From Candidatus Hydrogenedentota bacterium (GTDB lineage: Bacteria; Hydrogenedentota; Hydrogenedentia; Hydrogenedentales; SLHB01), in contig JACRLJ010000154.1 in NCBI GenBank assembly GCA_016215105.1, positions 1-40,769 of the forward strand: a stretch of DNA of 40,769 nucleotides, in the 5' to 3' direction. This document shows, one piece after another, positions 5,233 through 31,158 of this stretch. The notes below the pieces were generated by a model. That model searched no databases, was not told the DNA's origin, and saw nothing but the letters and a program-made list of their open reading frames with translations. Each line of letters opens with the position of its first letter. Within the stretch, counting starts at the first letter, position 1. The position numbers and the translations under genes are program-made.

Positions 5233-6237
5233 ATGTCAGGCAAGACGGTCGCCGTCGTCGGGGCTACAGGCCTCGTGGGAACCCGAATGATCCAGGTATT
5301 GGAGCAGCGCAACTTTCCGGTGAAGACTATCAAGTTTCTTGCCTCGGAACGGTCCAAAGGGAAGACGCTGAAGTTCCACGGGGAGACGGTGCCCGTTGAA
5401 GTCTTGGGTAAAGATTCGTTCAAGGGCGTCGAAGTCGCGTTGTTCAGCGCGGGCTCCGGCACGAGCAAGACGTTCTCGCCGTGCGCCGCGGCGGATGGCT
5501 GTGTCGCGGTGGACAATTCGAGCGCGTGGCGCATGGACCCGAACGTGCCGCTGGTGGTGCCGGAAGTGAACGCGCACGACATCGCGAAACATCACGGCAT
5601 CATCGCGAATCCGAATTGTTCGACGATTCAAATGGTGGTGGTGTTAAAGCCGCTGCACGACGCCGCAACAATCGAGCGCGTCGTCGTCGCGACCTACCAG
5701 GCCGTATCCGGCGCGGGAATCAAGGCGTTGGATGACATGATGAATCAAGTGAAAGATGACTTGGCGGGACGCGAGCCGTCGTGCCAGGTGTTCCCGTATC
5801 CGATCGCATTCAACTGCATCCCCCAAATCCCGCAGAGCGACGCGTTCACCGACAACGGCTACACCTCCGAAGAAATGAAGATGACGAACGAGACCCAGAA
5901 GATCATGGGCGATCCGTCCATCCGCGTCACCGCGACGACCGTGCGCGTGCCGGTTCACACCGGACACAGCGAAGTGGTTAACATCGAGACGAAAAAGAAA
6001 CTTACCGCCGATCAGGCCCGCGCGATTTTGTCCAAGGCCCCGGGCGTAGTGGTGCAGGACGATCCCGCGCATCAAATCTATCCGCTCGCGCGCGACGCCG
6101 CCGGCAAAGGCGAGACTTTTGTCGGCCGCATTCGCGAAGACATTTCGCATCCGCGCGGTCTCGCGATGTGGATCGTCTCCGACAACCTGCTAAAAGGCGC
6201 CGCGCTCAACGCCGTCCAGATCGCCGAACTGCTGTAG
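5233..6237 (+). CDS. asd: aspartate-semialdehyde dehydrogenase
   Basis: Reduces aspartyl phosphate to aspartate semialdehyde with NADPH, the branch point to lysine/diaminopimelate, methionine and threonine. The 334-residue protein starts with the nucleotide-binding loop VAVVGATGLVG. It has the catalytic NPNCST with Cys129, the QAVSGAG substrate loop near 157-163, and RVPVHTGHSE carrying Arg238 and the catalytic His245. The ATG at 5233 follows a GAGGGAGAA ribosome site. The gene is closed by a strong intrinsic terminator, so it is probably expressed alone. All key residues are present. Together with cimA, and possibly the mutase-like gene at 8500, it belongs to aspartate-family and isoleucine synthesis, although these genes are scattered here rather than in one operon. 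Confidence 0.97.
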   Translation: MSGKTVAVVGATGLVGTRMIQVLEQRNFPVKTIKFLASERSKGKTLKFHGETVPVEVLGKDSFKGVEVALFSAGSGTSKTFSPCAAADGCVAVDNSSAWRMDPNVPLVVPEVNAHDIAKHHGIIANPNCSTIQMVVVLKPLHDAATIERVVVATYQAVSGAGIKALDDMMNQVKDDLAGREPSCQVFPYPIAFNCIPQIPQSDAFTDNGYTSEEMKMTNETQKIMGDPSIRVTATTVRVPVHTGHSEVVNIETKKKLTADQARAILSKAPGVVVQDDPAHQIYPLARDAAGKGETFVGRIREDISHPRGLAMWIVSDNLLKGAALNAVQIAELL

Positions 6238-8499: not shown

Positions 8500-9714
8500 G
8501 TGCGTTACCTGGTCCTGCTCGGAGATGGCATGGCCGATTTCCCTCTCGCGGAACTCGATGGCCGGACGCCTCTCGAGGCGGCGTTCACACCCGCCATGGA
8601 TGAAATGGCGAAGCGGGGCATGTCAGGCCTCTTCTGTCCTATCCCCGCCAATCTCCCGCCCGGCAGCGACATCGGCAACCTCTCCATGTTCGGCTACAAC
8701 CCCAACGAAACCTTCACGGGCCGTGCGCCACTTGAAGCCGCCAACCAGGGCATCTCTCTGGCCGACGATCAAGTCGCATTTCGCTGCAATCTCGTGTCTC
8801 TCGGCGACGGTCTCATGCGCGACTTATCGTCCGGCCATATTACCACCGAAGAAGCGGCCGTGCTCATCGCGGCGCTAAACGAAGCCTTGTCGAAGTATCC
8901 CGTCAAGTTCCACCCGGGCGTAAGCTACCGCCACTTGGCCATCGTGACCGCGGGCGCCATTTCCGCGGAGGACCTGGCGCGCATTGACTGTACACCCCCG
9001 CATAATATACCAGATAAGCCCTACGCCGACTATCTTCCCCAGGGCGCGGGCTCCGATCTGATCAACGCGCTCATACGTCAGTCGCAGCCCGTGCTCGAGA
9101 AGCATCCCGTGAACGCCGCACGTATCGCGAACGGTAAAGCGCCCGCCACCTCCGCGTGGCTGTGGGGACAAGGCCGCGCGCCGTCTCTCGCCACCTACCG
9201 CGACCGGTTCGGCATCAGCGGCGCCGTGATCTCCGCGGTGGACTTGGTAAATGGCATTGGCGTGTGCGCCGGATTCGAAGTCATTCGCGTGCCGGGCGCT
9301 ACCGGCTATCTCGACACCAATTACGAAGGCAAAGTGTCCGCCGCGTTGGACGCGCTCAACCGCCACGACTTTGTATTCGTCCATGTCGAGGCGCCCGACG
9401 AAACCAGCCACCAAGGCCGCACCGACCTCAAGATCCAAGCCATCAACGATTTTGATCGCCGCATCGTCGCGCCCTGCCTCGAGTACGCTCACCGCGCCGG
9501 TGACGTCCGCGTCCTCGTCGCCCCCGACCACATTACTGCCATCTCCACCCGCACCCACGCCGGGGGCCCCGTCCCCTTCGCCCTATGCGGACCCGGAATC
9601 ACCCCCAACGGCTGCCGCGCCTACAACGAACGCGAAGCCGCCGCCAAAGGAGTCCTCTTCCCCGACGGCTACCGCCTCGTCCCCTTCATGCTAGGCCAGC
9701 CTGTTTCAAACTGA
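8500..9714 (+). CDS. archaeal-type cofactor-independent phosphoglycerate mutase homologue (possible homoserine kinase)
   Basis: Alkaline-phosphatase-superfamily protein of 404 residues, related to ApgM, which interconverts 2- and 3-phosphoglycerate. Metal-site blocks are visible: LLGDGMAD with Asp9 at the N-terminus, PPGSDIGNLSMFGY around 53-66 with the candidate phospho-Ser62, HVEAPDETSHQG in the C-terminal third, and PDHITAISTRTHAGGPVP. Bacterial members have been proposed as homoserine kinases from neighbourhoods lacking ThrB (TIGR02535-type annotation). asd lies about 2.3 kb upstream, which fits either role weakly. The start is GTG at 8500, set by the TAGGAGG ribosome site at 8488-8494. 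No other threonine gene is adjacent, so function stays open. Confidence 0.85.
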   Translation: MRYLVLLGDGMADFPLAELDGRTPLEAAFTPAMDEMAKRGMSGLFCPIPANLPPGSDIGNLSMFGYNPNETFTGRAPLEAANQGISLADDQVAFRCNLVSLGDGLMRDLSSGHITTEEAAVLIAALNEALSKYPVKFHPGVSYRHLAIVTAGAISAEDLARIDCTPPHNIPDKPYADYLPQGAGSDLINALIRQSQPVLEKHPVNAARIANGKAPATSAWLWGQGRAPSLATYRDRFGISGAVISAVDLVNGIGVCAGFEVIRVPGATGYLDTNYEGKVSAALDALNRHDFVFVHVEAPDETSHQGRTDLKIQAINDFDRRIVAPCLEYAHRAGDVRVLVAPDHITAISTRTHAGGPVPFALCGPGITPNGCRAYNEREAAAKGVLFPDGYRLVPFMLGQPVSN

Positions 9715-12707: not shown

Positions 12708-14297
12708 TTGTCCCAGCGTATCGAGATCTATGACGTAACCCTGCGCGATGGCGCGCAAGGCCCGAATATCAAGTTTTCGGCTGACGACCAGCTTCGCGTC
12801 GTGCGCGAACTGGACCGATTCGGCGTGGCGTACATCGAGGGGGGCCAGCCCGGCTCGAACCCCAAAGCCGCCGAACTCTTCATTCGGACACGCGACCTCG
12901 ATCTCACGAATGCGAAAATGGCCGCCTTTGGCAGCACCCGCAATCCCAAGTCCGCGCCTGAAGACGACGCCAACATCAAGGCGCTCCTCAGCGCCGAGAC
13001 CGAAGTCGTCACGATTTTCGCAAAATCGTCGCCCACCCACGCCAAAGAAATCCTGCGCGTCAGCCTGGACGAGAATCTCAAGATCATCGAGGATTCCGTC
13101 GCCTACCTCCGCTCGCAGAACCGCCGCGTGTTTGTGGACGCCGAGCACTTCTTCGACGGCTATGCGGAAGATTCGAGCTACGCCCTTGCGGCGCTCGAAA
13201 CCGCCTCGCGCGCCGGCGCCGAAGTCCTGATCCTGTGCGACACCAACGGAGGCCGCCTCCCCTGGGAAGTGGCCGAGACGATCCGCGCCGTGCGCAAACG
13301 CCTGCCCGCCGCGCAGTTGGGCATCCATGCCCACAACGACTGCGGCTGCGGCGTGGCCAACTCCATCACGGCGGTAGCCGAAGGCGTGGTCCACATTCAG
13401 GGCACGATCAACGGCTACGGCGAACGCACCGGCAACGCCAACCTGTGTACCATCATTCCCGACGTGCAACTGAAGATGGGTGTGCCATTGGTCACGCCCG
13501 AGCAGCTTGCCACGCTCAATCGGCTGTCGCACCTGGTAGCGGAACTGGCCAACATGACGCCCCGCGATTCGGACCCCTTCGTGGGCCGGGACGCCTTTAC
13601 GCACAAGGGCGGAATGCACGCGGACGCCGTCAGAAAGCTCAAGCACAGCTACGAGCACATTGATCCGGGTCACGTGGGCAGCAGCACGCATATCGCCGTG
13701 AGCGAGGTCGCGGGCCGTTCGAGTCTGCTGCAAAAGGCCGCAGAACTGGGCATCCAACTCGAACGCGACGGCAAGGAAACCCGCGCCATCCTTCAGCGCG
13801 TGAAGGAGCTCGAAAACGAGGGCTACGAGTTCGAAGGGGCGGACGCCTCCCTCGAACTGATCATGCGCAAAGCGACCGGCGCATACCGCAGGTTCTTTAC
13901 GGTGCAAGGGTTCCGCGTCAGCGTCGAACAGCAGGGCAAGAACGGCGAGCCATCCGTGTCCGAAGCCACATTGAAACTGACCCTGCCCGACGGCTTATTG
14001 ATGCACACCGCGGCGGAGGGCCACGGTCCCGTCGACGCGTTGAACAACGCGTTGCGCAAGGCGCTCGAAGGCACCTACCCCGAATTGCGCGACGTCCACC
14101 TCGAGGACTACAAGGTGCGTATCCTCGACGCCCAGGCCGCTACCAGCGCAAAGACCCGCGTATTGATCGAATCCAGCGACAGCGACCTGACCTGGGACAC
14201 GGTCGGCGTGTCGGAAAACATCATCTCCGCGTCTTACCAGGCGCTGGTGGATAGTATCGAATACAAGCTCCTCCGATCCCGCGGCCCCGTCGAATAA
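12708..14297 (+). CDS. cimA: (R)-citramalate synthase
   Basis: Condenses pyruvate and acetyl-CoA to (R)-citramalate, the threonine-independent entry into isoleucine synthesis. The 529-residue protein has the DRE-TIM catalytic domain: DVTLRDGAQGPNIKFS near the N-terminus, CDTNGG around 183-188, and the metal site HAHNDCGCGVANS near 205-217, followed by GTINGYGERTGNANL. Past about residue 370 comes the LeuA-type C-terminal regulatory domain, usually the site of feedback inhibition. It is CimA rather than 2-isopropylmalate synthase by length and by the INGYGERTGNANL pattern. The start is TTG at 12708 with GGAGAGGGA just upstream. No other branched-chain gene is adjacent; the IlvC-like gene 15 kb away is unlikely to be its partner because its active site differs. 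Confidence 0.93.
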   Translation: MSQRIEIYDVTLRDGAQGPNIKFSADDQLRVVRELDRFGVAYIEGGQPGSNPKAAELFIRTRDLDLTNAKMAAFGSTRNPKSAPEDDANIKALLSAETEVVTIFAKSSPTHAKEILRVSLDENLKIIEDSVAYLRSQNRRVFVDAEHFFDGYAEDSSYALAALETASRAGAEVLILCDTNGGRLPWEVAETIRAVRKRLPAAQLGIHAHNDCGCGVANSITAVAEGVVHIQGTINGYGERTGNANLCTIIPDVQLKMGVPLVTPEQLATLNRLSHLVAELANMTPRDSDPFVGRDAFTHKGGMHADAVRKLKHSYEHIDPGHVGSSTHIAVSEVAGRSSLLQKAAELGIQLERDGKETRAILQRVKELENEGYEFEGADASLELIMRKATGAYRRFFTVQGFRVSVEQQGKNGEPSVSEATLKLTLPDGLLMHTAAEGHGPVDALNNALRKALEGTYPELRDVHLEDYKVRILDAQAATSAKTRVLIESSDSDLTWDTVGVSENIISASYQALVDSIEYKLLRSRGPVE

Positions 14298-24612: not shown

Positions 24613-26289
24613 ATGGGACGCAAATACGTAATCGGACTGGACTATGGCACGGAATCCGGGCGGGCGCTGCTCGTTGCGGTGGATAACGGCGAGGAGGTCG
24701 CGACCGCCGTCATGACCTATCCGCACCGGGTAATAGACGACACGCTGCCGGGCACGGGAAAGAAATTGGAGCCGGACTGGGCGCTGCAAGATCCCCGGGA
24801 CTATCTCCAGGTCCTGGAAACGGTTATCCCCCAGGTTCTCAAGGAATCGGGTGTCAAGGGCGGAGACGTCATCGGCATTGGAACGGACTTTACCGCCTGC
24901 ACGATGCTTCCCATAGACCAGGCCGGTGCGCCCCTGTGCATGAAGCCCGAGTTTGCGGCCAATCCCCACGCGTGGGTGAAACTGTGGAAACATCACGCGG
25001 CACAGCCCGAAGCGGACAAGATCAACGAGGTCGCTCGCGCCCGTGGCGAATCGTTCCTGGCGCGTTACGGCGGAAAGATCTCCAGCGAATGGTTCTTCTC
25101 GAAAGCCCTCCAAATCCTCGATGAGGCGCCGGAGATCTACACAGCCGCCGACCGTCTGATCGAAGCGGGTGACTGGATCGTGCTCCAACTCTGCGGCAAG
25201 GACACGCGCAACGCCTGCGCCGCCGGCTACAAAGCCATCTGGGACGAAGGCTATCCGGATAAGGCTTTTTTCAAGGCGCTCGACCCCCGATTCGAGAACG
25301 TGGTCGCGGATAAGCTCAATGCGCCCGTGTTACCTGCTGGCGTGAAGGCGGGCGGTTTGCTCCCGGAGATCGCCAAGAAGATCGGTCTCGTTCCGGGCAC
25401 AGCGGTCGCCACGGGTGGTGTGGACGCGCACGTCGCCGTACCCGCGACCGCCGCGACCAGCGAAGGCAAAATGGTCATGATCATGGGTACCAGCCTATGT
25501 CACATGGTGTGCGGAACGAAGAAAGTCGCTATCGACGGCATGTGCGGCGTCGTAAAAGACGGCATCCTGCCCGGCTTCTACGGGTTCGAGGCCGGACAGA
25601 GCGCCGTCGGCGATATCTTCGCGTGGTTCGTCAACAACTGTGTTCCAGCGTCCGTGGCGGAAGACGCCAAGAAGGCCGGAACCGACATCCACGGCTATCT
25701 CGCCGCGGAAGCCGGTAAACTTAAGGTGGGCGAGTCCGGCGTGCTCGCGCTGGACTGGTGGAACGGCAATCGCTGCATCCTGGTAGACGCCGACCTCACC
25801 GGACTCATGGTGGGAATGACCCTGGGCACTACGCCCGCGGAAATGTACCGCGCTATCCTCGAAAGCACCGCGTTCGGCACCTACACGATCATCCGGCAAC
25901 TCGAAAAGGGCGGCTGTCCCATCACCGAGTTGTACGCGTGTGGCGGCTTGCCCGGCAAGAACCCGCTGTTGATGCAGATCTTCGCCGACGTCACCAACCG
26001 CGAAATCAAGATCAGCGCCAGCGAACAGACGGTCGCCCTGGGGTCGGCCATGTGGGGCGCGGTCGCGGCGGGCGCGGCGGCCGGCGGCTACGACGACGTG
26101 ACCCACGCGGCGCAAAAGATGGCGCGCCTGCGCAAGGAAACCTACAAACCCAACAAAGAAAATCACGCACAGTACGAGAAACTATTCGCGGAGTATACCC
26201 GCCTGCACGACCTGTTTGGCCGGGGCGGGGATAACGTGATGAAGAATCTCAAGGCAATTAAACGGTCCATTCGTGGCGTATCGAACTAA
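24613..26289 (+). CDS. araB: ribulokinase
   Basis: FGGY-family sugar kinase that phosphorylates L-ribulose (and related ribitol/ribulose sugars) with ATP. The 558-residue length fits AraB and is longer than xylulokinase or glycerol kinase. Visible are the N-terminal phosphate loop [13 protein letters not shown], then [32 protein letters not shown] and the C-terminal nucleotide region [24 protein letters not shown]. An AGGAG ribosome site at 24601-24605 sets the start. No araA isomerase or araD epimerase is adjacent, so the sugar pathway is not complete here. It heads a long same-strand series, but the 147-base gap to the next gene leaves operon membership open. AraB naming is by family; the actual substrate is untested. 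Confidence 0.9.
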
Positions 26290-27002: not shown

Positions 27003-29195
27003 ATGACCGCCGCATTGAGCGGCATTGTGATCTCGATGCTAACGGCGGCGGCCAGTCCGGGCGCGCTCCCGGGACCGCGGCTTCAAGTCGAGGTGCGCGC
27101 GGATCAACATGACGTGGACACGGGGCGGTCCGTGAGCCTGGACATATCCGTCCGAACCGAATCGAGCATTCCCGCGGCCGACTGCCTGCTCTTACCGTAC
27201 GTAAACGGGCGGCGATGGGGGGCGCACGAAGTCACCGACGGCCAGGGCCGCGCGCGCGTAATCCTGCCCTTGCCCAATCCCGGCTTGGCGCGTGTCGTGG
27301 TGCGAGCCGTGCCCGGCTTCCACCATACCTGCTGGATTTGGACAGAACGCGGCGCCGCGAAAAACGCGTACCTGATGCGATCATTCGCGATGACTTTCCC
27401 AGTGGACAGCGCTCGAATCCACGCCGCCGCGACAGGGCACAGCACGGTTTACCTCAACGGTTCCACAGTGGGCAAAGTGGCGGGCATTACCGAGGAAGCC
27501 CGCATCGAAGTTCCCAACGGCTTGCTCAAAGTGGGACAGAACATCATCGCTATCGAGGCGGACAACAGCTCCGGCATGGCGGGAGTCGCAGCGCAACTCC
27601 GATTCCACGAAGGTGGCGCTGAGCGCATCATATCTACGGACAGCGAATGGCGCGCGTGGGAGCAGGCGCCCGCCGGATGGCCCGGCAGTGTGACTGACGC
27701 CGTCACGCCGGCGCGCGCGTTGGCGCGGCTGTGGGACGATCTATTGCCGAGCAAATCGTTTGAGTCGTGGTTTGGCGGCGTTCATCGCGACGAACTATTC
27801 GTAGGACGCCTGCTTCCCGATAACGCCTGCGCGTCGGCGCCGCTTGACGTGGACGTCCGCCGCCGCGCGATTACCGGTCGCCGTGATCCGGCACACCTGG
27901 TAGGCATCCAGTGGGGCAGTTACTATTTCCCGGGCGGCTTCTACTGGCAGACCGCGCAGGCGGTCCCGGTAGTAGGGTTCTACGACACGTATAACCGTGA
28001 CGTTATCCGCCAGCACGCGCTCTGGTTTATGGACATGGGGATCGACTTTCTGGTGGCGGACTGGCCGGTCTACATCCCGCCGAACGCGGAAGGCAAGCAG
28101 CGCTGGGCCGACCGAACCGAATTCGGGATTCAACAGATTCACGCCACCACCATGATGCTCGAAGGACTAGCGGAGCTTCGCGATGAAGGCTACCCGGCGC
28201 CGGCCATGGTTATCATGGCCTACTTGTCGAACGGTCCGGCGAACACAAAGGAAACGCTAAACGAGCAACTCACATGGCTGAATGAGAATTTCATTCGAAA
28301 CCCGCGTTTTCATGATCTGTGGGTCGTGTACGAGGGGAAACCGTTAGTGTGTGTGTTGTACACGGGCGGGACGCCGGCGAGTCAGTTGCCGGGTCCGCCG
28401 GTTGACACGAGTTCATTTACGATTCGTTACGTCGGGACACAGTTGCAGGCGACACACGTGGACGAACTCGGCCACTGGTCATGGATGGACGGTGTGGCCG
28501 AGCCCATCGTCACGTACGCGAACGGCCGTCCCGAGGTGGTAACTCCGGCCACGGCGTTCTTCAGTCTGAAGACGGGCTGGCGCGGCGAGGACGCGTACGG
28601 GCGGCGGAACGGCGCGACCTTTCTGCGCTCGTTCAATCCGGCCCTAAAGGCGCGGCCGCAGTTCGTGCTGTTCCATCAATGGAATGAGTTTACCGGCCAG
28701 GCCGAAGGGTATCCGTACGAAAGTGGAATCTACGGAGACAGCTACAGCGTCGAGTTGTCCGACGACATCGAGCCGGTGTCGCTGACGTCGCCCGGCTACC
28801 GGGGTGACCACGGGGGCTGGGGATTCCTGTACGCCAACCTCACGCGGGCGATGGTTGACCTATTGAAGCAGGAGACGCCGCAAGACTCGCTGCTGGCGGT
28901 ATATTCGCCGCGGCCCGGGGAGCAGGTCACCGGGGACAGCGTTACTGTCGGTTGGGAACTATTGGGCAAAGCTCCGGAATCATTCACTCTATTGATCGAC
29001 CAAGTCCAAGTCGCTCACAATGTGAAGGGCAGCGCATACTCGCTCAGTCTTTCCAGCGTATCAAAGGGCAGACACGTGCTATCGGTTCTCGCGGAGGGCG
29101 TGACGACTCACTTTCCTCTGTTGGAAGACCGCATGGATACACGGCTCGACGAAGCCATTCCGGTTCGTCGCGATATAACGTTCGTTCGCGAGTGA
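27003..29195 (+). CDS. secreted GH99/GH71-like glycoside hydrolase candidate
   Basis: 730-residue protein with a short signal peptide (MTAALSGIVISMLTAAASPG). A beta-sandwich with a carbohydrate-binding look follows (about 135-205: VYLNGSTVGKVAGIT, LLKVGQNIIAIEADNSSG). The central part reads like a TIM barrel of the GH99/GH71 kind: VGIQWGSYYFPGGFYW, ALWFMDMGIDFLVADW and FVLFHQWNEFTGQAEG, the last typical of the C-terminal barrel end. A final Ig/FN3-like domain begins near residue 640. The catalytic acids cannot be assigned from the sequence alone. An AGAGGAGA ribosome site precedes the ATG. The stop is 41 bases before the IlvC-like gene, so they may be cotranscribed, coupling outside glycan breakdown to the following dehydrogenases. 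Confidence 0.7.
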   Translation: MTAALSGIVISMLTAAASPGALPGPRLQVEVRADQHDVDTGRSVSLDISVRTESSIPAADCLLLPYVNGRRWGAHEVTDGQGRARVILPLPNPGLARVVVRAVPGFHHTCWIWTERGAAKNAYLMRSFAMTFPVDSARIHAAATGHSTVYLNGSTVGKVAGITEEARIEVPNGLLKVGQNIIAIEADNSSGMAGVAAQLRFHEGGAERIISTDSEWRAWEQAPAGWPGSVTDAVTPARALARLWDDLLPSKSFESWFGGVHRDELFVGRLLPDNACASAPLDVDVRRRAITGRRDPAHLVGIQWGSYYFPGGFYWQTAQAVPVVGFYDTYNRDVIRQHALWFMDMGIDFLVADWPVYIPPNAEGKQRWADRTEFGIQQIHATTMMLEGLAELRDEGYPAPAMVIMAYLSNGPANTKETLNEQLTWLNENFIRNPRFHDLWVVYEGKPLVCVLYTGGTPASQLPGPPVDTSSFTIRYVGTQLQATHVDELGHWSWMDGVAEPIVTYANGRPEVVTPATAFFSLKTGWRGEDAYGRRNGATFLRSFNPALKARPQFVLFHQWNEFTGQAEGYPYESGIYGDSYSVELSDDIEPVSLTSPGYRGDHGGWGFLYANLTRAMVDLLKQETPQDSLLAVYSPRPGEQVTGDSVTVGWELLGKAPESFTLLIDQVQVAHNVKGSAYSLSLSSVSKGRHVLSVLAEGVTTHFPLLEDRMDTRLDEAIPVRRDITFVRE

Positions 29196-29236: not shown

Positions 29237-30277
29237 ATGAAGCTTCTCAAAGATCAGGACGCCTCGCTGGGGCCTCTGAAGGGCAAGGCGGTCGCGGTGC
29301 TCGGATACGGCAATCAAGGCCGAGCCCAGGCGTTGAATTTGCGCGACAGCGGTGTACACGTGATCGTGGGGAATCGGGACGACAAGTACCGCGAGCAAGC
29401 GGCCACCGACGGGTTCATGCCGATGTCCATTCTGGACGCCGCGACGCAGGGCGACATTCTGATCATTGTCACCACGGACGAGTCTCAGCCCCGAATCTGG
29501 AATGAGCAGATTGCGCCGGGCGTGAAGCCCGGCAACACGCTGGTCTGGGCCAGCGGCTACAACATTGGCTATGATCTGATACGTCCGGCCGCCGATGTGG
29601 ATGTCATCATGATTGCGCCCCGCATGACGGGGAACATGGTGCGCGTAATGTTCGAGCAGGGCACGGGCGCCCTCGCGCAGTTCGCGGTTCACCAAGACGC
29701 GACCGGACACGCCCGTGAGACCTGCCTCGCGTTGTGCAAGGGTATGGGGCTGACCCGTGGCGGCGTGTTCGAATCCACGTTCCGCGAAGAAGCCGAACTG
29801 GACCTGTTCGCGGAACAAGTCGTATGGGCCGGCCTCACGGCGTGGTTCGTCGAGTGCTTCGAGATCGGCGTCGAGCACGGGTTTTCCCCCGAGCTCATGG
29901 TGATGGAACTGTACGCGTCGGGCGAAGCCGCGGAAATCCTGGGGATGATGTCCAAGCGCGGGTTCTTCAAACAAATGACGCACCATTCGACCACGAGCCA
30001 ATACGGAACGCTATCACGAGGGCCGCGGCTAATCATGGATGAAATGAGGCAAAAGGCGCGCGAATTCTTGAGGAAGGACATTAAGGAGGGCGCGTTTGTT
30101 CGCGAGTGGAGCAGCGAGCAGGACCAAGGCGAAGGGCGGCTAGAAGCACTGAAAAAGAAAGCGTTGAGCCATCCCATGAGCCAGGCCGAGGACGCCGTGA
30201 TCGCCATGATTCAAGCGGCGCACAGTTCGGCCCCACCCAAGAGCGCGGCCTCAAACGCGGAAGTTGGCCGCAAATGA
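29237..30277 (+). CDS. IlvC-like ketol-acid reductoisomerase homologue with altered active site
   Basis: 346-residue protein alignable end to end with class I ketol-acid reductoisomerase. The Rossmann part has VAVLGYGNQGRAQALNLRDSGV (about 19-40). The C-terminal knot has AVHQDATGHARE and ESTFREEAELDLFAEQ with the metal ligands Asp189 and Glu193. However, the catalytic His of the usual AHGFN is Ser106 (WASGYN), the Lys of APKGPG is Arg129 (APRMTG), and the second glutamate of the ExxxE pair (ELYAS, Glu224) is Ser228. The NADPH fold is intact. A normal acetohydroxyacid reaction is therefore doubtful. The start at 29237 has AAGGAA upstream. It lies between a secreted hydrolase and an SDR dehydrogenase rather than ilv genes. 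A new substrate, perhaps a sugar-derived keto acid, is possible. Confidence 0.8.
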   Translation: MKLLKDQDASLGPLKGKAVAVLGYGNQGRAQALNLRDSGVHVIVGNRDDKYREQAATDGFMPMSILDAATQGDILIIVTTDESQPRIWNEQIAPGVKPGNTLVWASGYNIGYDLIRPAADVDVIMIAPRMTGNMVRVMFEQGTGALAQFAVHQDATGHARETCLALCKGMGLTRGGVFESTFREEAELDLFAEQVVWAGLTAWFVECFEIGVEHGFSPELMVMELYASGEAAEILGMMSKRGFFKQMTHHSTTSQYGTLSRGPRLIMDEMRQKAREFLRKDIKEGAFVREWSSEQDQGEGRLEALKKKALSHPMSQAEDAVIAMIQAAHSSAPPKSAASNAEVGRK

Positions 30278-30304
30278 TGCCACGGTTGCGCGTTTGCCAG
30301 TAGC

Positions 30305-30357
30305 GCCGGCTTCCAGCCGGCAAGTTTCGGTTCCTGCGAGGCCGGCAAGATGCCGGC
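30305..30357. repeat. two-hairpin intergenic element (TCC and AGA loops)
   Basis: Hairpin 1: GCCGGCT (30305-30311) TCC AGCCGGC (30315-30321). Hairpin 2: GCCGGCA (30341-30347) AGA TGCCGGC (30351-30357). The loops and their closing pairs match those at 17501-17541, but the stems are different and compensated. It lies between the IlvC-like and SDR genes. Confidence 0.75.
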
Positions 30358-30381
30358 GTTACATCTGACGGGAGAAGACTT

Positions 30382-31158
30382 ATGCGGCTGACGGGAAAAG
30401 TAGCCATCGTCACGGGCGCTGCCCAAGGGATTGGGTTAGGGATCGCAGGAGTGTTCGCGCGTGAAGGCGCTAGCGTGACGTTATCGGATGTACAGTCCGA
30501 CGCCGGAGCGCGCGCCGTGCAGGCTATTACCTCCGAAGGCGGAGATGTGTGCTATCAGCACGCGGACGTTACCCGCGAAGCGGACGTGAAAGCGCTCGTT
30601 GACACCACCGTGGATCGCTTCGGCGGCCTCGACATCATCGCGAACAACGCGGGCATTTGTATGGTGCGGTCGGCGGAGGAAAGCACGGTCGAGGAATGGG
30701 ATCAGACCATGGCCATCAACGTGCGCTCCATTTTCCTGACAACCAAACACGGCGCGCCTTACCTGCGGCGGCGGGGCGGCGGCGCGATTCTCAATGTGGC
30801 TTCGATATCCAGCTTTGTCGGACAGGAAGGCACCCCGGCGTACACCGCCAGCAAGGGCGCCGTATTGATGCTGACGAAAAGTCTGGCTGTGGATTACGGA
30901 CGCGACAAAATCCGCGTGAACTGCATCTGCCCGGGCATCACCGATACGCCGATGTTGCGCTACCATATGGGCCAGGCGGGAGACGTCGACCAGGCGATTG
31001 AAAAACGGCTTCGCCGAGTCCCCTTGGGCGAAATGCTCTACCCAGACGACATGGGCCGCGCGGCGGCCTACTTGTGCAGCGACGAAGCAGGCGGAATCAC
31101 CGGCGCATCGCTGGTTGTGGACAGCGGTTACATCGCCTGCGCGGAGTTCGACCACTAA
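30382..31158 (+). CDS. short-chain dehydrogenase/reductase (SDR)
   Basis: 258-residue NAD(P)-dependent oxidoreductase of the classical SDR family. The cofactor loop is TGAAQGIG (11-18), with an acidic residue at the end of strand 2 (LSDVQ, Asp36) that favours NAD. NNAG is at 88-91. The catalytic Ser141 (NVASIS), Tyr154 and Lys158 (YTASK) are all present, and the C-terminal ITGASLVVDSGY is typical. GGGAGAAG precedes the ATG. It follows the IlvC-like gene after 104 bases that hold a two-hairpin element. The substrate cannot be told from the sequence. Similar enzymes oxidise sugars, sugar acids or 3-hydroxyacyl groups. In this setting it may work with the IlvC-like protein. Confidence 0.9.
   Translation: MRLTGKVAIVTGAAQGIGLGIAGVFAREGASVTLSDVQSDAGARAVQAITSEGGDVCYQHADVTREADVKALVDTTVDRFGGLDIIANNAGICMVRSAEESTVEEWDQTMAINVRSIFLTTKHGAPYLRRRGGGAILNVASISSFVGQEGTPAYTASKGAVLMLTKSLAVDYGRDKIRVNCICPGITDTPMLRYHMGQAGDVDQAIEKRLRRVPLGEMLYPDDMGRAAAYLCSDEAGGITGASLVVDSGYIACAEFDH

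Follow-up and report, generated by a model that had tools for sequence, protein, structure and literature searches.

A remodelled ketol-acid reductoisomerase subfamily, most likely catabolic, with a relative of solved structure

The window, by which we mean the whole stretch of 40,769 nucleotides analysed here, carries on its forward strand a gene for a ketol-acid reductoisomerase (KARI)-like protein that we refer to, together with its relatives of the same type, as K2. The open reading frame is a real gene encoding a two-domain class I KARI homologue: its boundaries fall exactly at 29237–30277 (+), it specifies 346 amino acids, and comparison of its codons with those of relatives gives a dN/dS of ~0.1–0.2, so the gene is maintained. 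The KARI_N (3.6e-55) and KARI_C (2.3e-30) domains are both complete in a domain search, which matches the class I architecture of KARI_N and a single KARI_C knot domain in a protein of typically about 330–345 aa. The protein passes the cut-off of the NCBIfam ilvC model TIGR00465 (266.6 bits; cut-off 226) and does not reach that of the stricter NCBIfam model NF004017 (300.8 bits; cut-off 336). The blocks of the class I fold named in an initial sequence-only reading (GYGNQG, Asp189, Glu193, and HQDATG) are all found in the protein. A single-sequence AlphaFold model of the protein was discarded (pLDDT 37).

Table 1 Features of the K2 locus in the window, with residue counts from the alignment described in the text.
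Feature	Position	Strand	Details
730-aa protein, earlier called glycoside-hydrolase-like	27003..29195	+	Upstream neighbour of the K2 gene
K2-type KARI-like protein gene	29237..30277	+	346 aa; KARI_N, KARI_C, and NCBIfam matches
Asp49 in shortened cofactor loop (GNRDD)	29381..29383	+	Invariant in 13-member K2 alignment
Ser106 replacing catalytic His	29552..29554	+	K2: S 11, H 2, T 1; comparison set: H 27, S 1
Arg129-Met130 replacing catalytic Lys and Gly (APRM for APKG)	29621..29626	+	14/14 K2; Lys in 28/28 comparison sequences
Asp189, retained predicted metal ligand	29801..29803	+	D in 42/42 sequences
Glu193, retained predicted metal ligand	29813..29815	+	E in 42/42 sequences
Glu224, first Glu of second metal pair, retained	29906..29908	+	E in 14/14 K2 and 27/28 comparison sequences
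Ala227-Ser228, two-residue insertion	29915..29920	+	Gap in 28/28 comparison sequences; Ser228 in 14/14 K2
Glu230, counterpart of canonical second Glu	29924..29926	+	E in 42/42 sequences; same placement by BLASTP
His250-Ser251, new invariant His, then kept substrate-binding Ser	29984..29989	+	His250 in 14/14 K2, V/I/C in comparison set; Ser251 in 42/42
REP-like palindromes between K2 gene and SDR gene	30300..30360	.	Repeat unit GCCGGCAAGATGCCGGCG
SDR oxidoreductase, probable partner	30382..31158	+	258 aa; adh_short_C2 3.4e-67

Downstream of the K2 gene lies the gene for an SDR oxidoreductase, which is 51.6% identical to the SDR of a K2–AP2–SDR cluster in a relative (L005). The gap between the two genes contains REP-like palindromes, so co-transcription of K2 and the SDR is not certain; genome-wide, the repeat unit GCCGGCAAGATGCCGGCG has 23 copies that are exact and 16 with one mismatch, and several of these form inverted pairs ~37 bases apart in a REPIN-like arrangement. 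An AP2 partner elsewhere in the genome is a weak match at best (2.7e-5). The 730-aa protein encoded upstream has no Pfam or NCBIfam match, and none of the other K2 loci compared encodes a homologue of it, which rules out this glycoside-hydrolase-like neighbour as a conserved K2 partner. Of the two neighbours first offered as support for a changed function, the SDR thus recurs in one relative, and the glycoside-hydrolase-like gene falls away. The region at 24613–26289, further upstream, encodes an L-ribulokinase (744.7 bits); the gene after it specifies a ferritin-like protein. The window also encodes a citramalate synthase (12708–14294; 690.8 bits), an aspartate-semialdehyde dehydrogenase (5233–6237), and a phosphoglycerate mutase or proposed homoserine kinase (8500–9714). 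These amino-acid genes lie 15–24 kb upstream of K2, so some genes of the isoleucine pathway do occur on the contig.

Residue counts were taken from an alignment of 42 sequences, comprising the window protein and 13 relatives of the same type (14 K2) and 28 other KARIs. The catalytic His of the HGFN motif is absent from the window protein, where Ser106 stands in its place, and the catalytic Lys of APKGPG is replaced by Arg129. Both substitutions had been proposed from the sequence alone and are borne out by the comparison set, with His in 27 of its 28 sequences and Lys in all 28; within K2, position 106 varies among Ser, Thr, and His. The two acidic residues of the first metal helix, DxxxE, are both present (Asp189 and Glu193). 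The second metal helix reads E224-xxx-S228-x-E230 in K2, compared with E-xxx-E in canonical enzymes, and MAFFT and BLASTP agree on a two-residue insertion in K2 that leaves Glu230 opposite the second canonical Glu; Glu224 and Glu230 both align to the Glu pair of this helix, with two extra residues between them. Ser228, previously taken for a replacement of the second metal Glu, sits within the insertion, so that assignment was an alignment error and the substitution is ruled out. Because Asp189, Glu193, Glu224, and Glu230 are invariant in K2, all four acidic metal ligands are probably kept and the metal site intact.

The Ser that contacts the substrate carboxylate is conserved as Ser251, and the motif around it is HSxTSQ in K2 (HSxTSA in one member, L039) versus the canonical VSDTAE, with Ser254 and Gln255 both changed. 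Met130, Gln246, His250, and Ser254 are further changes fixed in K2, and the cofactor loop is ~3 residues shorter than in most class I sequences aligned. The sequence-only reading had missed Met130, Gln246, His250, Ser254/Gln255, and the shorter loop with Asp49. Replacement of two near-invariant catalytic residues could mark a non-catalytic pseudoenzyme, but strong purifying selection makes this hardly credible, as does the fact that the metal-ligand residues, the substrate Ser, and the cofactor motif do not vary across bacteria and archaea. The S61D and S63D changes in Se-KARI were reportedly made to shift that enzyme to NADH. Since the K2 loop is short and carries an invariant Asp49, a preference of K2 for NADH is a reasonable inference by analogy with these Asp-substituted Se-KARI loop mutants (S61D and S63D, listed in PMC5940873). 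From Arg129 and His250, we infer a polar or charged substrate.

In a maximum-likelihood tree, the 14 K2 rows, including the window protein, form one clade apart from the canonical KARIs with support of 100/99; the tree was flagged for several long branches, which leaves the order of branching within K2 less certain than the clade as a whole. The hallmarks of the clade are Arg129-Met130, ExxxSxE, HSxTSQ, and the shortened loop with Asp49, and its fixed residues are R129, M130, S228, Q246, H250, S254, and D49. Of the three residues initially suggested to define such a clade, Arg129 and Ser228 do mark a monophyletic K2, and Ser106 was rejected as a marker, since S, T, and H vary at this position and two haloarchaeal members keep the His. 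Members come from MAGs labelled Verrucomicrobia and Kouleothrix (Chloroflexota), whose proteins are 74–77% identical to the window protein, from three members of the window genome's family, and from a small separate phylum. Others are encoded on haloarchaeal plasmids and on one plasmid of Sulfitobacter. PDB 6jcv (‘Putative ketol-acid reductoisomerase 2’, 17 entries) also belongs to K2, where it forms a 98/91 subgroup with L058 and L061. That the nearest relatives are labelled as other phyla suggests horizontal transfer of K2, or else mis-binned contigs.

K2 is rare and patchy, scattered across bacteria and archaea. It was found in 6 of 452 distinct genomes (G000–G451), in a screen with the degenerate motif GYN-17aa-APRMxG that would miss K2 proteins with other motif variants, and on plasmids of halophilic archaea and Sulfitobacter. 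A second sample of 386 genomes, mostly overlapping the first, contained no further K2 genome, and the phylum search around G113 covered 3 genomes. Two candidates, L062 and L065, were rejected as canonical KARIs. In Sulfitobacter sp. DSM 110093, an apparently truncated K2 whose match begins at residue 34 (L063:8001–8777) has IS elements around it, and the aldehyde dehydrogenase of this locus is 97.9% identical to that of the S. dubius K2 locus. Another divergent KARI-like protein (L046:4175–5086) has SSAFN for HGFN, retains APKGPG, and sits on a very long branch; its gene adjoins genes resembling branched-chain aminotransferase and keto-acid dehydrogenase E1.

A search of the window's genome for a second, canonical ilvC found one directly after ilvN (L001), whose product is 37% identical to the window protein. 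A canonical KARI accompanies K2 in all six whole genomes (G000, which is the window's genome, G006, G014, G018, G113, and G386), and G387, which is sister to G113 and G386, carries the canonical KARI only. No ilvN homologue occurs at any K2 locus compared, and the neighbourhoods in the clade resemble catabolic loci more than ilv loci.

By its accession neighbourhood, we take PDB 6jcv to be the S. solfataricus enzyme, and presumably it is the published KARI of that species, assayed on acetolactate; PDB 6KPJ and 6jcv belong to the same accession series. In PMC8615647, the S. solfataricus KARI (PDB 6KPJ) is cited among dodecameric KARIs and bispecific enzymes, and a K2 member thus appears to have been published as a bispecific KARI. 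This, together with the probable retention of the acidic metal ligands and the deposition of 6jcv as a KARI with the same Ser, Arg, and ExxxSxE, weakens the initial claim that the window protein cannot do normal branched-chain chemistry. K2 could accordingly be viewed as a second ordinary acetohydroxyacid isomeroreductase, a branched-chain isoenzyme with different cofactor or pH behaviour. Such an isoenzyme would agree with 6jcv (apparently the bispecific S. solfataricus KARI), with the passed NCBIfam ilvC cut-off, and with the citramalate synthase on the same contig. We nevertheless consider it unlikely: K2 is always the extra copy, is never beside ilvN, is rare, patchy, and set among catabolic genes, and has an invariant Arg where the invariant Lys would be.

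Sugar or sugar-acid genes are found at most K2 loci. L005 has K2, an AP2 TIM barrel, and an SDR in a tight head-to-tail array, close to an aldehyde dehydrogenase gene, and at L006 an AP2 gene adjoins K2. In haloarchaea, a stretch of 10 kb contains a sugar ABC transporter, two SDRs, and three genes of the enolase superfamily, and cupins are encoded at these loci as well; the Sulfitobacter locus holds a glycerate kinase, a TRAP transporter, a GntR regulator, and aldehyde dehydrogenases, and an Fe-ADH lies near K2 at L043. At L058 and L061, the AP2 gene stands beside an ADP-ribosylglycohydrolase gene that adjoins K2, and a related ADP-ribosylglycohydrolase is two genes away from K2 at L041. The cluster at L058 (7985–19570) and L061, from the small separate phylum, runs DUF711–AP2–ADP-ribosylglycohydrolase–K2–Mur-ligase-like and comes after aspartate-family genes identified by eye (aspartokinase, semialdehyde dehydrogenase, and threonine genes). 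Neighbours differ between K2 loci, with no universal partner, and two haloarchaeal loci, L040 and L064, have no sugar genes near K2.

The AP2 enzymes near K2 weakly resemble 2-oxo-tetronate or hydroxypyruvate isomerases and, with the Sulfitobacter glycerate kinase, would fit a simple reductase that works, with His and Lys changed, on a 2-oxo acid (hydroxypyruvate, tartronate semialdehyde, or ketopantoate) and has no isomerase action. Promiscuous reduction is a known property of KARIs, the IlvC of C. glutamicum makes up for a missing panE, and hydroxypyruvate is among the substrates assayed on KARIs (PMC4353338). However, the residues that align with the metal ligands of the isomerase step are all kept and invariant, and a check for ketopantoate reductase found two good PanE homologues above the cut-off in the window's genome; ketopantoate reduction is therefore not needed from K2, and its role as a PanE substitute was rejected. 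A simple reductase seems to us rather improbable, if worth keeping in view.

The most likely explanation, which we put forward tentatively, is that K2 is a Mg2+-dependent, NAD(H)-leaning KARI subfamily that is catabolic and acts on a polyhydroxylated sugar-derived acid, not on acetolactate in valine/isoleucine synthesis. A catabolic role is favoured by the canonical ilvC beside ilvN, the status of K2 as an extra copy in 6/6 genomes, the clade support of 100/99, the dN/dS of ~0.1–0.2, and the presence of sugar or sugar-acid genes at most K2 loci, with no ilvN. Against it stand the deposition of 6jcv as a KARI and the apparent publication of a K2 member as a bispecific KARI, the variable neighbours with L040 and L064 lacking sugar genes, the size and promiscuity of the SDR family, and the citramalate synthase of the isoleucine route 15 kb upstream in the window. 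In the favoured catabolic subfamily, Arg129 and His250 would make the polar contacts that Lys and His otherwise provide, and a Mg-chelated hydroxy or oxo acid would be oxidised or reduced with NAD(H), perhaps in the oxidative direction. K2 may still rearrange the carbon skeleton, the adjacent SDR may act before or after it, and the promiscuous reductase activity of KARIs would be a plausible starting point.

Formally, D-apionate oxidoisomerase (ApnO) runs a KARI reaction backwards with a branched sugar acid as its substrate, and the C-terminal domain of ApnO differs from that of K2. It is quite unlikely that K2 is itself a catabolic oxidoisomerase, using NAD+ to run the reverse KARI reaction on an acid of this branched sugar type and feeding the SDR and, in relatives, also an AP2 isomerase, in which case 6jcv would be a misassigned sugar-acid enzyme. 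If K2 is catabolic, the annotation ‘ilvC, valine/isoleucine biosynthesis’ that K2 genes carry is wrong, and the physiological substrate of an archaeal enzyme whose structure has been well studied needs another look. K2 would then also provide a natural comparison of a metal-dependent carbon-migration site with Arg for Lys and Ser for His.

We regard K2 as a variant within the known KARIs and not as an enzyme class of its own. It shares both domains, the aligned metal-ligand residues, the substrate Ser, and 37% identity with class I KARI (IlvC, EC 1.1.1.86; e.g., L001), whereas Lys129 and usually His106 are replaced, a two-residue insertion, a new His250, and a short cofactor loop are present, and the neighbourhood is non-ilv. 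Streptomyces IlvC2 resembles K2 in being an extra KARI copy with diverged substrate use, but it is 97% identical to IlvC1 and complements an ilvC mutant (PMC4353338), while K2 is a deep, separate clade. Within that clade, 6jcv shares the Ser106, Arg129-Met130, ExxxSxE, and HSxTSQ of the window protein, but belongs to a separate branch of K2, and the work on it has treated it as an ordinary class I KARI.
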